This document shows, one piece after another, positions 4,276 to 41,761 of a stretch of DNA of 47,335 nucleotides. The notes beneath the pieces were generated by a model. It had not been told where the DNA came from and searched no databases. It was given only the letters and a program-made list of their open reading frames with translations. The DNA comes from an uncultured Desulfuromonadales bacterium (lineage in GTDB: Bacteria > Desulfobacterota > Desulfuromonadia > Geobacterales > CAIOGM01): contig CAIYUY010000107.1 of assembly GCA_903929485.1 (NCBI GenBank), forward strand, positions 1-47,335. Reading direction: 5' to 3'. Within the stretch, counting starts at the first letter, position 1, and every line of letters begins with the position of its first letter. The translations under genes and the position numbers were made by a program.

Positions 4276-5381
4276 CTGTTCCCCATAGTCTCTATCTTGA
4301 AAAGATGATGAACCGGGCCATTCTCCTGGCGCGTAAAGGGGTCGGTAAAACGACGCCCAATCCTCCCGTGGGGTGCGTTATTGTCCGGGATGGGGAGATC
4401 GTCGGGAGCGGTTGGCACAAGAAAGCCGGTACCCCCCATGCGGAGGTTCATGCTCTCGGTGAAGCAGGGGAGCTGGCCCGGGGGGCCGACCTCTTCGTCA
4501 CCCTGGAGCCGTGCAGTCACTTCGGCAAGACCCCTCCCTGCGCCGATGCCCTCATCGCCGCGGGAGTCGGGCGGGTCTACGCCGGAATCATCGACCCCAA
4601 TCCCCGGGTTGCCGGACAGGGAATCGAGAGGCTTCGGTCCGCCGGGATACCGACCTTTACCGGAATCCTGGAACAGGAGTGCCGTCGCCTCATCGGTCCG
4701 TTCATGAAGCAGGTATTGACCGGACTCCCCCTGGTCACCGTCAAGAGCGCCCTGACCCTGGACGGCAAGACCGCCACCGCCACGGGCGACTCCAGATGGA
4801 TCACCGGGGAGGAGGCCAGGCGCCATGTGCACAAGCTTCGGGCCGAACATGACGCCCTCATGGTGGGAGTGGAGACGGTTCTGGCCGACGATCCCCAGCT
4901 CACCTGCCGCCTTCCCCGCAGTGCCGGAGATCCGCTGCGGGTGGTGGTTGACAGCCGCCTCCGGACCCCCCTTGACGCCCAGCTCTTCCGGTTGCAGTCA
5001 ACGGCGCCAACCCTCATCGCGACAATCCGGCAGGACGCAGCGCTGTTGGCGCCGTTTCGGGCGTTGGGAGCGGAGCTGGTGTTTTGTCGTGAAGCGGGTG
5101 GCCGGGTGGATCTGGCGGATCTGTTGGCGCAGCTGGGGAAGCGAGGGATACAGTCGCTTCTCGTGGAGAGTGGCGGCGTACTTGCCGGAGAACTTTTGCG
5201 TCAGGGGCTCATCGACAGGCTGGTTCTCTTCTACGGAGCCAAGCTGGTTGGTGGCGAGGGGCGTTCCCCCTTTGCGGGGAGCGGCGCAGGAAAGATGTCG
5301 GAGGCGATCCGGTTGCGGGAGATAAAGGTCAGGCGCTTCGGCGATGATCTCATGGTCTCCGGGTATTTGAGGGAGTGGTAA
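4272..5381 (+). CDS. ribD: Bifunctional riboflavin deaminase/reductase RibD
   Basis: 369 residues. It catalyses deamination of the pyrimidine intermediate and then reduction of its ribosyl chain in riboflavin synthesis. The N-terminal zinc deaminase shows TPHAEVHAL and [15 protein letters not shown] (residues about 50-100). The reductase domain starts at [14 protein letters not shown] (about 157) and has [12 protein letters not shown] and a C-terminal VESGG. The ATG overlaps the nrdR stop by ATGA. It is followed by 279 bp of repeat DNA before ribE, an odd interruption of an operon. Confidence 0.97.
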
Positions 5382-18554: not shown

Positions 18555-18594
18555 AGGTTCAAGGTTCAAGGTTCAGGGTTCAGGGTTCGGGGTT
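18555..18594. repeat. Intergenic word repeat (AAGGTTCAGG type)
   Basis: About 40 bp of tandem GGTTCAA and GGTTCAG words upstream of the tlpA start codon, with a weak inverted match AACCTTGATCCCTT at 18616-18629. Same style as the repeats at 5385, 29008, 40879 and 41556 but with a different word. Confidence 0.7.
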
Positions 18595-21046: not shown

Positions 21047-21847
21047 ATGTCTGATGCGGGAAGGGAGTTCGATCGTCTTGTGGGGATCATGGATCGGTTA
21101 CGGGGACCGGGAGGGTGTCCATGGGATGCGGAACAGACCCATGGTAGCCTTACACGGTATCTCCTGGAGGAGTCCTACGAGGTGATTGAGGCCATAGATG
21201 CCGGTTCACCGGAGATGCTGAAGGAGGAGTTGGGAGATCTGATACTTCAGCCGATCTTTCATGCCGCCATCGCCGCGGAGCGGGGAGAATTCGCCATTAC
21301 CGATGTTCTCGTGGGGATTAATGAAAAATTGGTTCGACGCCATCCTCACGTCTTCGGTGATCAGATCATAGGCAGCAGCAGCGCACAGGTGGAGAACTGG
21401 GAGAAGATCAAGGCGGTGGAGAAGGGGGATAAACGGAAATCGGCCCTGAGCGGTGTCCCGCCGCAACTCCCCGCGCTGCTTCGGGCGCAGAAATTGACGG
21501 AAAAGGCGGCCCGGGTGGGGTTCGACTGGGAGCACGTTGATCAGGTCTTCGCCAAGGTTCTGGAGGAGTTGGGGGAGTTTCAGGAGACCATGGTGGAAGG
21601 GGATCAGGAACGGATGGAAGCGGAACTGGGGGATCTCCTCTTCGCCATCGTCAACCTGGGGCGGTTTTTGGCCATAAATCCCGAGGAGGCGCTGAGGAAG
21701 ACCATGACCCGCTTCACCGCCCGGTTCGAGCATGTTGAGGGATCTCTCCACGGGCAGGGACGGAAGATGACCGACGCCACCCCGGCCGAGATGGATCTGT
21801 TATGGGAAGAGGCCAAGCGGCTGGAGGCCGCGGAAAAGAGCGCCTGA
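21047..21847 (+). CDS. mazG: Nucleoside triphosphate pyrophosphohydrolase MazG
   Basis: 266 residues from the ATG at 21047 (MSDAGREFDRLVGIM), chosen for the AAAAGGAGA upstream; the frame is open further 5'. It hydrolyses NTPs and dNTPs to monophosphates (house cleaning). Two MazG helical modules are visible: the first with GGCPWDAEQTHGSLTRYLLE, EESYEV and EELGDLI, and the second with LEELGEFQE and EAELGDLLFAIVNLGRFL. Only the second keeps the full EExxE...ExxD metal site in most relatives. It is divergent from lpxD. The stop codon lies at the edge of a word repeat. Confidence 0.94.
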   Translation: MSDAGREFDRLVGIMDRLRGPGGCPWDAEQTHGSLTRYLLEESYEVIEAIDAGSPEMLKEELGDLILQPIFHAAIAAERGEFAITDVLVGINEKLVRRHPHVFGDQIIGSSSAQVENWEKIKAVEKGDKRKSALSGVPPQLPALLRAQKLTEKAARVGFDWEHVDQVFAKVLEELGEFQETMVEGDQERMEAELGDLLFAIVNLGRFLAINPEEALRKTMTRFTARFEHVEGSLHGQGRKMTDATPAEMDLLWEEAKRLEAAEKSA

Positions 21848-22376
21848 ACCACGGAGGCACGGAGACACGGAGAAAACGGAGAAAACCAAGGGGACATTCA
21901 CAACAAGTCGCCATTTTGTTCTTTGCTTGTCATCCTGAGCGAAGCGAAGGATCCGCTGTAGATTTTACTGCCTAAAAAACAAAAAGCAGATTCTTCGCTT
22001 TGCTCAGAATGACGGGCTTTGGCTGACGATACCGTTCAGTTTTTCGTCCATAGTAGTCTCCCTTCCCGCAAAATGATTCTTGACATGGTCGGAAGGCTGC
22101 TGTCGTCATGGAATTTATCCGCACGTTTAAGCAGGAAATTTGCTCTCCTTATCTCACCTTCGCCCTGATCGCCTCGAAATCCTTTCCCTCCGGCATGATG
22201 AACAGGCACAAGCCGTTGCTCCGCTGCTCCCACAGTTCGCCCAGTTGCCGTTTTTCGATGTTTTCCGGCGGATGCCAGTTCCGCTTGTTTTCGCGTTGCT
22301 CAGAATGACAGGCTCTTGGTTATTTTTCCAACGCTTTTAAAATGCCTTTCTCTGTGCCCTCCGTGACTCTGTGGTG
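21848..22376. repeat. Word-repeat block with outer inverted arms around a restriction-gene remnant
   Basis: The 543-bp gap between mazG and murJ has a left arm ACCACGGAGGCACGGAGACA (21848-21886) and a right arm CTCTGTGCCCTCCGTGACTC (22347-22376), which are reverse complements with a few mismatches. Inside lies a second hairpin, 21929-22013, whose halves are GTCATCCTGAGCGAAGCGAA and TTCGCTTTGCTCAGAATGAC. A repeated right half of that hairpin follows at 22292-22311, with the protein remnant at 22149-22290 between them. No intact gene was found here. Confidence 0.8.
22149..22290 (-). pseudogene. C-terminal fragment resembling a restriction-type helicase subunit
   Basis: On the minus strand the frame ending at the TAA (22149-22151) reads NKRNWHPPENIEKRQLGELW and then EQRSNGLCLFIMPEGKDFEA. 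I recognise the pattern EKR-LGELW--RS-G-CLF-MP as the extreme C-terminus of DEAD-box type III-like restriction subunits. No start codon or helicase motifs lie upstream. The frame begins in a word-repeat hairpin, so this is a leftover fragment. Family assignment is from memory and is tentative. Confidence 0.45.
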
Positions 22377-22390
22377 ATATTATTACTCCC

Positions 22391-23965
22391 TTACCGTTTC
22401 CGGAACTTGCGCTTCACCAGCGCGCCGGCGTCGCGGACCTCTTCGCACCCCAGCAGATGCGCCGTCAGGATGAAGAGAAGCACCCCGGCGCCGATACTCC
22501 CTCCCAGGACCGTCGCCTTTTCAACCTTGTGCCCACCCGCTGACCAGTCGGTCAGTCCCATCCCGCACCACACCAAAAATCCCATGGGGAGTGCCGCGAC
22601 CAGTGTCTTGAGCGCTGACCCCAGTATCCTGCCTCCGCCGAACCCGCCGATCTTCTTCCGGAGCAGGAAGAAGAGGAGCGCCATGTTGCACCCGGCCGCA
22701 AGAGTCGTCGCCAGGGCCAAGCCGCCGTGTAATAACGGCTTCATGAGTATCATGCTGAGACCGGCATTGAGGAGAAAGGAGATAAAGGCGGTCACCACCG
22801 GAGTCCGGGTATCCTTCAGCGCATAGAAGGCCGGGATCAGGACTCTCACCATGGCCACGACTGCCAGACCCAGTGAGTAGTATTGCAGCGCCTGGGCCGC
22901 CTTCACCGCCTTGGGATAATCGAACTCTCCCCCCATGAAGATGAGGCTTAAAATGGGGGTGGCGCAGACTACCAGACCCACCATGGCCGGGATCGTGATG
23001 AAGAGGGTGATCTTGAGACCGAAGCGGAGCGACTCCTTCAACTGCTCCATCTCCCCCGCCGCCGCCTGCCGGCTCATGGAGGGGAGGACCGCTTGGGCTA
23101 CGGAGACCGTGATGATCCCCTGGGGAAACTCGAAGAGTCGCTGGGCGTAGTAGAGGTAGGAGACACTTCCCTGGGGGAGGAGCGAGGCCAGGATATTGCT
23201 GACGGTTAGATTGAGGTAGTAAACTCCCACGCCAAAGAGCGACGGTCCCATGAGGAGGGCGATCCGCCTCACCGCGGGGTGACGAAAATCCAGGCGAGGA
23301 CGGATGCCGAACCCCTTCCGGTAGAGGGTGGGAAGTTGCAGCAGGAGCTGGAGTATCCCCCCAACCAGGACTCCTATCGCCAGGGAAACGATGGGAACCT
23401 GAAAGCGGTTGTGCAGGAGCAGGGCGCAGAGAATCATGGAGATGTTGAGAAATACGGTGGATATGGCCGGGGTGAAAAAATGGCGCACCGTGTTGAGTAT
23501 TCCCATGCAGAGCGCCACGAGGCTGATGAAGAAAAGGTAGGGGAACATCAGCCGGTTGAGGAGCACCGTCAGGTCGAACTTGCCGGGTAGTTCCTTGAAG
23601 CCCGGGAACATGATCCCCACGACCAGGGGAGAGAATATCATCCCCAGAATCGTCAGTGTCGCCATGACGATGGTGAGGAGGGTGAAGCAGCTGTTGGCCA
23701 GGTCGCGGGCTTCCTGCTTGCTCCGCTTCGTGTAGTATTCGGAAAAGGTGGGGACAAAGGCCGCGGTGAGCGCCCCTTCGGCAAAAAAGCGGCGGAGCAT
23801 GTTGGGAATCTGGAAGGCTGCAAAAAAGGCGTCGGTGGCAAGCCCCGCTCCGAAGAGGCGTGACACGGTCATGTCTCTTACCATTCCCATGATCCTGGAG
23901 ATGATCGTGGCGAAGCCGAGTACCCCGGCGGCTCTGACGATCTGTTTCTTTTCAGTGTCACTCAC
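22391..23965 (-). CDS. murJ: Lipid II flippase MurJ (MviN)
   Basis: 524 residues, polytopic (about 14 transmembrane helices), MOP exporter superfamily. It flips lipid II to the outer face of the cytoplasmic membrane for peptidoglycan assembly. The N-terminus has the family motif AAGVLGFATIISRIMGMVRD, then DAFFAAFQIPNMLRRFFAEG and ALTAAFVPTFSEY. The C-terminal LGCEEVRDAGALVKRKFRKR is basic and cytoplasmic. It starts 24 bases after the hairpin that ends the LysM/NlpC transcript, so it needs readthrough or a promoter overlapping that hairpin. Confidence 0.96.
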   Translation of the reverse strand: MSDTEKKQIVRAAGVLGFATIISRIMGMVRDMTVSRLFGAGLATDAFFAAFQIPNMLRRFFAEGALTAAFVPTFSEYYTKRSKQEARDLANSCFTLLTIVMATLTILGMIFSPLVVGIMFPGFKELPGKFDLTVLLNRLMFPYLFFISLVALCMGILNTVRHFFTPAISTVFLNISMILCALLLHNRFQVPIVSLAIGVLVGGILQLLLQLPTLYRKGFGIRPRLDFRHPAVRRIALLMGPSLFGVGVYYLNLTVSNILASLLPQGSVSYLYYAQRLFEFPQGIITVSVAQAVLPSMSRQAAAGEMEQLKESLRFGLKITLFITIPAMVGLVVCATPILSLIFMGGEFDYPKAVKAAQALQYYSLGLAVVAMVRVLIPAFYALKDTRTPVVTAFISFLLNAGLSMILMKPLLHGGLALATTLAAGCNMALLFFLLRKKIGGFGGGRILGSALKTLVAALPMGFLVWCGMGLTDWSAGGHKVEKATVLGGSIGAGVLLFILTAHLLGCEEVRDAGALVKRKFRKR

Positions 23966-40873: not shown

Positions 40874-40878
40874 TAATT

Positions 40879-40942
40879 TTGAATGTTGAATGTTAAATTT
40901 TGAATTCAACATTCAACATTCAACATTCAACATTCAACATTG
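40879..40942. repeat. Intergenic word repeat hairpin (TTGAATGTTGAATGTT type)
   Basis: Left TTGAATGTTGAATGTTAAAT (40879-40898), centre TTTGAATTC, right AACATTCAACATTCAACATT repeated to 40942. The right arm has five copies of the 7-base word ATTCAAC; the left has two. It folds into a hairpin ending 8 bases before the AAAGGAG of grpE. Confidence 0.9.
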
Positions 40943-41000: not shown

Positions 41001-41573
41001 GTGAGCAAGAAACATCCCGAAGAGCATCATGAAGAGTTGGCGGAGATCGCGGATGCGCTTACTCCGGATCCCGCCGTCGTGGAAGACGATCCGCTGGGCA
41101 GGCTGGAGACGGCCCTGGCGGAAAAGGAAGCCGAGGCCAAGGCCAACTGGGACAAGTTTATTCGTGAGCGCGCGGATCTGGAAAATCTCCGGAAGCGGTT
41201 CCAGAAGGAGAAGGAGGATCTCTTCAGGTATGGAAATGAGAACCTCATTCAGGAGATCCTGCCGACGTTGGACAACATGGAGCGGGCGCTGGAGCATGCC
41301 GGCGACGACAACGGGGCGGCCATTATCGAGGGGGTGAAAATGACCCTCGCCATGCTCCTTGCTTCCCTGAAAAAGTTCGGCGTTACCGCCATCGAGACCA
41401 AGGGGGTGCTCTTCGACTCGGCCTTTCACCAAGCCGTTTCCCATCTGGAGACCGCCGACCAGGAGCCGAATACCGTGATCCAGGAGTTTCAGAAGGGGTA
41501 TATGCTCAACGATCGACTGCTCCGCCCGGCCATGGTTACCGTGGCGAAAAAACCGGTGAATGGTGAAGAGTGA
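41001..41573 (+). CDS. grpE: Nucleotide exchange factor GrpE
   Basis: 190 residues from the GTG at 41001 (AAAGGAG upstream). A second in-frame GTG at 40959 also has AAAGGAG at good spacing and would add 14 residues (VLPNWLLNRKGEKN). GrpE releases ADP from DnaK. Features are the long N-terminal coiled coil (EKEAEAKANWDKFIRERADL then ENLRKRFQKEKEDL) and the beta domain GVLFDSAFHQAVSHLETADQ to GYMLNDRLLRPAMVTVAKK. The last codons, VNGEE and the stop, are the first units of the GTGAATGGTGAA repeat that fills the grpE-dnaK gap. Confidence 0.96.
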   Translation: MSKKHPEEHHEELAEIADALTPDPAVVEDDPLGRLETALAEKEAEAKANWDKFIRERADLENLRKRFQKEKEDLFRYGNENLIQEILPTLDNMERALEHAGDDNGAAIIEGVKMTLAMLLASLKKFGVTAIETKGVLFDSAFHQAVSHLETADQEPNTVIQEFQKGYMLNDRLLRPAMVTVAKKPVNGEE

Positions 41574-41682
41574 ATGGTGAATAGAACCGGTGAAGGGTGA
41601 ATGGAAACCGTGAATAGTGAATGGTGAAACGTGAAAAGATCAAAGGCATTTTTCACCCTTCACCATTCACCATTCACTTTTT
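41556..41682. repeat. Intergenic word repeat hairpin (GTGAATGGTGAA type)
   Basis: Left arm from GTGAATGGTGAAGAGTGAAT (41556) through GGTGAAGGGTGAATGG (41589-41604) to about 41635. The right arm is TTCACCCTTCACCATTCACC continuing ATTCAC (41654-41679), the reverse complement of the left. It overlaps the last five codons of grpE and ends about 80 bases before dnaK. Confidence 0.9.
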
Positions 41683-41761
41683 TCAGCAACAGGCCTTGTT
41701 TTTCCCGGCGGCAGTTACTATCTTCGGAATAATAGATTCAGATAAGGGAGGAAAATCAGTC

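Follow-up and report, generated by a model that had tools for sequence, protein, structure and literature searches.

The block between mazG and murJ in the window (the whole 47,335-nucleotide stretch of DNA analysed here, from an uncultured Desulfuromonadales bacterium) is, on sequence comparison, an ordinary member of a dispersed repeat family, and within it lie the decayed remains of a type III restriction operon (Table 1). The paired arms of this unit, which lie around the operon remains, are probably the ends of a family of elements carrying a GxxExxY gene. Similar inverted ends bracket genes for an unstudied nuclease elsewhere and point to a family of small mobile elements not yet described. 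The block itself is ordinary; the interesting lead is a bracketed nuclease family whose arm words also occur in gene-less units of the same genome.

Table 1. Positions of genes, repeat arms, hairpins and operon remains in the window
Feature	Position	Strand	Remark
Second gene-less word-arm unit, CACTGAG, partly tandem-repeated	5385..5653		Matches flank of L262 (contig C21), score 84
mazG	21047..21847	+	Final codons abut the left arm
Left arm, 3 CACGGAG words at 8-bp spacing	21848..21880	+	Starts from the mazG stop codon
Full-length hairpin of the dispersed TCATYCTGAGCGAAG family	21929..22013		Same place in sister genome G002
res-downstream segment with ribosome-site-like sequence and ATG (MDEKLNGIVSQS...)	22030..22077	-	Cut by the hairpin; also in G002
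Remnant of a type III restriction res gene, C-terminal codons, truncated at the 5' side	22152..22295	-	Homology to about 22290
Half hairpin copy, 25 nt	22290..22314		Abuts truncated res; res homology stops and repeat starts at about 22290
Right arm, diverged inverted word array (CACAGAGTCACGGAGGGCACAGAG)	22347..22375	-	By alignment, 24 of 29 columns
murJ	22391..23965	-	Convergent with mazG
Third gene-less word-arm unit, CGCAAAG	29009..29152		Matches flank of L261 (contig C234), score 66

The original prediction had placed the block between mazG and murJ with outer arms at both of its ends. The placement is borne out, and the two genes converge. The left arm is exact (ACGGAGGCACGGAGACACGG at 21851-21870), but the right arm is a diverged copy and not an exact complement. 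The alignment of 21848-21875 with 22347-22375 covered 29 columns, 24 of them matching, with one gap, and reached a score of 18, compared with a maximum of 15 among 3000 random pairs of window stretches. The inner hairpin was indeed found partly duplicated around the protein fragment, with a complete copy on one side and a half copy, 92% identical to the full hairpin, on the other. Target-site duplications had been looked for just outside the block and none was found. The window unit is probably dead, judging from the divergence of its right arm and from the lack of a right arm in G002.

A repeat census, made by pattern and similarity searches of the genome, showed that the 20-bp arm word occurs at 66 places in the 5.36-Mb genome when up to two mismatches are allowed, and the reversed control pattern at none. 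The hairpin, like its half copy, belongs to a second dispersed family in the same genome. Most arm words form inverted pairs that enclose a short core, at a distance of 135-175 bp. In addition, five wide CACGGAG pairs (288-526 bp) were seen, three of which (on contigs C49, C285 and C300) contain only other palindromes, whereas the one on C301 holds an intact GxxExxY gene between its arms and the window unit holds the hairpin and the Res relic. Foreign fragments between these arms are therefore not a general pattern among the five. On C300 (L215) the CACGGAG arms enclose a CACGAAA arm pair together with a TCATTGCGAGCG hairpin, so that the palindromes are nested.

The compact arm units are filled in this genome and empty in sister genomes. 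The unit L034 (contig C288, about 4390-4535) is flanked by a 14-bp direct repeat, GTAATTGGAAAACG, of which the empty sites in G001 and G003 have one copy. This was the sole exception among 36 units examined, as target-site duplication was absent in the other 35, and classical transposition is thus not demonstrated. A search of Rfam gave no credible match, the only hits being two weak sub-threshold matches to microRNA families in the hairpin, and a literature search with the sequence words returned nothing relevant.

The gene on C301 encodes a GxxExxY protein according to both TIGR04256 (8.5e-44) and PF13366 (PDDEXK_3; 1.8e-41), and 24 GxxExxY proteins all retain the catalytic E, D and E-x-K together with Q-x3-Y. 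Because this gene is enclosed by arms, GxxExxY genes in general were examined for them, in 200-bp flanks at 91 loci from Geobacterales, other Desulfobacterota and plasmids. Inverted arms with a score of at least 18 were present at 70 of the 91 loci and at none of 58 mazG control loci, figures that refer to a sample of the strongest profile matches and to a threshold set after inspection of the data. In mismatched controls, which set an upstream flank against the downstream flank of a different locus, 4-10% of pairs reached a score of 18. The remaining 21 loci stayed under 18, without clear arms. We take the association of GxxExxY genes with inverted word arms as shown statistically at the level of sequence.

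The arm words include CACGGAG, CACAGAG, CACGAAG, CGCAAAG, CGCGGAT and CACTGAG. Their common form, C-R-C-N-R-A-K (last position searched as A, G or T), occurred 122 times in 70 arms and 13 times in shuffles, with a spacing of 8-10 bp. The words vary between loci, yet they agree at both ends of one locus. This is best seen in the orthologous genes L259 and L269, whose products share 80 of 117 residues and which carry CACGGAG and CACAGAG, respectively, each on both arms, indicating that a change of word between lineages affects both ends of an element alike. Only two GxxExxY loci were found in viral contigs, both with inverted arms. Among seven plasmid records, clear arms were present in Bacteroides (L320) and Sphingomonas (L322), and the plasmid loci of Treponema and Bernardetia had no clear arms. 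L322, on the Sphingomonas parapaucimobilis plasmid NZ_CP155749.1, consists of a GxxExxY gene with inverted CGCGAAG-type arms between fabD and fabG, within a fatty-acid gene cluster. With regard to the protein itself, no convincing relative was found in the PDB by sequence, and the structure predicted from two sequences for a GxxExxY protein of a viral contig had a mean pLDDT of 41, too poor to use. In 5.39 million open papers, GxxExxY, PDDEXK_3, TIGR04256 and PF13366 appeared in incidental mentions only; two of these papers contain the name GxxExxY, and judging by the abstracts neither deals with its function.

The window contains two more gene-less word-arm units besides the block (Table 1). 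When all three were compared with 92 GxxExxY loci from many genomes, each had its best match in its own genome, and the partners were different genes: L259 for the CACGGAG unit, L262 and L261 for the other two. The match of the CACGGAG unit to L259 was tied by the orthologue in G002. Furthermore, the window arms show matching CRCNRAK-like inverted arrays at both ends, as do the proposed elements. The suggestion of the original prediction that the arms serve as ends of a mobile unit gains support from the dispersed arm units and the bracketing of GxxExxY genes; mobility itself is supported indirectly, by the filled and empty sites and the 14-bp direct repeat at L034. The site upstream of an hdrA-like gene is occupied in G025 by a GxxExxY gene whose arms have the word CACAAAG, and in the genome studied here (G000) and G001-G003 by gene-less units with other words; this site (L227, L334, L339, L341, L234) may be a recurrent insertion site or a case of arms respelled in place. 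The genome G022 contains 100 CACRRAG arm words and no PF13366 gene, so the nuclease is not always present alongside the arms; its gene may have been lost or missed there, or the arms may have been moved by something else.

In the model that we propose, complete members would consist of one GxxExxY (PDDEXK_3) gene between inverted arrays of 3-4 words of the C-R-C-N-R-A-K type at a spacing of 8-10 bp, and the gene-less units would be their non-autonomous derivatives. The putative nuclease would recognise its own word array, or a cruciform or hairpin formed by the arms, and cut there. Repair or replication after cutting would copy the unit to new intergenic sites, and gene-less units with a matching word would move in trans. 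REPIN-RAYT systems combine paired REP palindromes with a tyrosine transposase, TnpA-REP, and by analogy we infer that a PD-(D/E)XK nuclease gene, word-repeat ends and gene-less derivatives could work together in a like manner. In both, the ends are short inverted palindromes, gene-less copies are numerous and intergenic, and one dedicated nuclease-type gene is bracketed by the same repeat within that genome. Unlike REPIN-RAYT, the gene here is of the PD-(D/E)XK type (GxxExxY) and not an HUH Y1 transposase, and each arm consists of 3-4 repeats of a word that is spelled differently from locus to locus. Five PF01797 (Y1_Tnp) genes are present in the genome, and none had an arm word or the hairpin in its examined flanks; no Y1 HUH transposase flanked by the repeat was thus found, and RAYT transposases were rejected as mobilisers. 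REPIN-RAYT is, by analogy, the nearest working model.

A broader claim would be that a class of mobile palindromic elements, not described before, has GxxExxY proteins as its enzymes: a PD-(D/E)XK nuclease would recognise a self-specific array of short words, the word would drift in concert at the two ends of each element, and every spelling would have gene-less followers of its own across bacterial phyla. This claim is tentative and we lean slightly against it. Annotation of GxxExxY proteins is widespread, and no role has been assigned to them; the claim, if true, would at once provide a function for these proteins and for the common but unexplained intergenic palindromes of the CACGGAG, CACGAAG and CGCAAAG types. 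It would also represent a second, unrelated enzyme solution to the REPIN-RAYT lifestyle. As the arms are matched within a locus and different between loci, concerted evolution of recognition sequences would be directly testable.

The compact units also resemble MITEs. They are short (135-175 bp), gene-less, multicopy and intergenic, they have inverted terminal repeats and their sites are empty in relatives, a likeness that extends, by description only, to Chunjie, the MITE of Geobacter uraniireducens described in the review PMC10969869, with its gene-less units of about 150 bp. They differ from MITEs in that target-site duplication was seen in only one of the 36 units, and not at the window block. 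Their gene-bearing counterpart carries GxxExxY, which is not a known transposase. In addition, multicopy sequences have been described in Geobacter bemidjiensis and G. metallireducens as families of palindromes and short direct repeats that are intergenic, with several per gap, according to the accessible text of PMC2996986 and PMC2700814. The repeats reported here are likewise intergenic palindromic and short direct-repeat families; in contrast, the same accessible text makes no connection to a nuclease gene.

Two other explanations of the arms were weighed against the GxxExxY reading. The arms could be unrelated to mobility or to the nuclease, with the convergent mazG-murJ gap acting as a sink in which unrelated dispersed repeats and relics collect for want of counter-selection. 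The repeats of this gap differ from species to species, other wide units contain nested unrelated palindromes, and the multicopy sequences of G. bemidjiensis cluster intergenically, often with several in one gap (PMC2996986, accessible text), all of which would be expected from a sink. However, a sink leaves unexplained both the matched inverted arms of GxxExxY loci (70/91 against 0/58) and the word match of the three gene-less units with genes of their own genome, and we give it a low probability. Alternatively, the arm units could be regulatory structures such as bidirectional terminators, hairpins at mRNA ends or sites for nucleoid proteins, which spread owing to their usefulness, and GxxExxY could be a regulator or processing nuclease and not an enzyme of mobility. 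The tight placement of units behind stop codons and between genes, the occupation of the same sites in several species with different words and the IHF/HU-type sites proposed for other multicopy Geobacter sequences (PMC2700814, accessible text) are consistent with such a role. It is less easily reconciled with the lack of a credible Rfam family match, with arms that lie hundreds of bases apart in the wide units, and with the empty sites in close relatives, which mean gain or loss, so that we think this explanation unlikely. The reading of the arms as ends of GxxExxY elements is the one we retain as the more probable.

With respect to the content of the block, the restriction-type helicase fragment that had been predicted is real. 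The minus-strand frame ends in PPENIEKRQLGELWEQRSNGLCLFIMPEGKDFEAIRAKVR and a stop, and it retains the last ~46 codons of res, with 72-82% identity to intact Res proteins of 878-929 aa from other Geobacterales, identifying it as the C-terminus of a type III Res subunit. The fragment gave no match in Pfam, NCBIfam or PDB because it is too short. PADLOC typed an intact pair from Geobacterales as MTase_III (1e-38) and REase_III (4e-65), the latter being one of the intact Res homologues. Intact mod-res operons are present in G028, G187 and G032 (L355-L357) in the order mod then res, which matches the relics, and L357 is 81% identical to them in Mod and 72% in Res.

The mazG-murJ site is present in three genomes of the same genus. 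In G001 the gap is empty and measures 24 bp, and in G003 it holds a left arm and other palindromes without restriction sequence. In the sister genome G002 the left arm and the hairpin recur, as does the segment that follows res (85.6% identity to the window over 201 bp), including the same truncated open-frame start, MDEKLNGIVSQS.... Going away from mazG, G002 then encodes the beginning of Res (MILKNY), a 126-aa C-terminal part of Mod and, furthest out, the initial ~40 aa of Mod; the Mod piece belongs to a type III methyltransferase. Within the mod relic of this gap (L070) lies a palindromic repeat with very long arms, and the inverted-repeat score within the gap is 137. No Mod, Res or GxxExxY sequence was found in the other mazG-murJ gaps examined.

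The Res start and both Mod ends at the shared flank of G002 show, from sequence, that a complete mod-res operon reading towards mazG once occupied this site in the common ancestor with G002. Several deletion joints coincide with palindromic repeats. The operon was later deleted differently in each lineage, leaving here the res tail joined to the half hairpin at about 22290, and in G002 both ends of mod and the first codons of res. The orthologous site of the present genome and G002 thus retains relics of adjacent mod and res genes, as in type III restriction-modification systems; unlike those systems, it holds fragments only, with no intact methyltransferase or helicase-nuclease and nothing functional.

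These data bear directly on the original prediction that a small foreign piece had been captured between the palindromes. What is left of the other parts of this operon at the G002 site contradicts it, and the idea that a mobile unit had picked up the res fragment was rejected on that evidence. Empty and filled versions of the site do exist, in the form of the empty G001 gap and the arm with operon relics in G002. Similarly, it is very improbable that a composite mobile unit, with the palindromes as its ends, picked up the restriction gene fragment and brought it to the site: inverted arms and, further in, a hairpin with its half copy do enclose the fragment, but G002 keeps the rest of the operon at the same site and flank, the fragment occurs once in the genome, the block lacks a target-site duplication and no other examined CACGGAG unit flanks a foreign gene fragment.

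Lastly, other repeats were observed in the window. Inverted arrays of short words occur at 40875-40941 and 41555-41685 (TTGAATG/ATTCAAC and GGTGAAT/TTCACCA), of a word type unlike that of the GxxExxY arms. A GGTTCAG heptamer array of 5.6 copies lies at 18556-18594, close to a gene start, and two tandem copies of a 27-bp self-palindromic unit, GGCAATTCATGAATTGCCCCTACAAAC, are found at 2193-2246.
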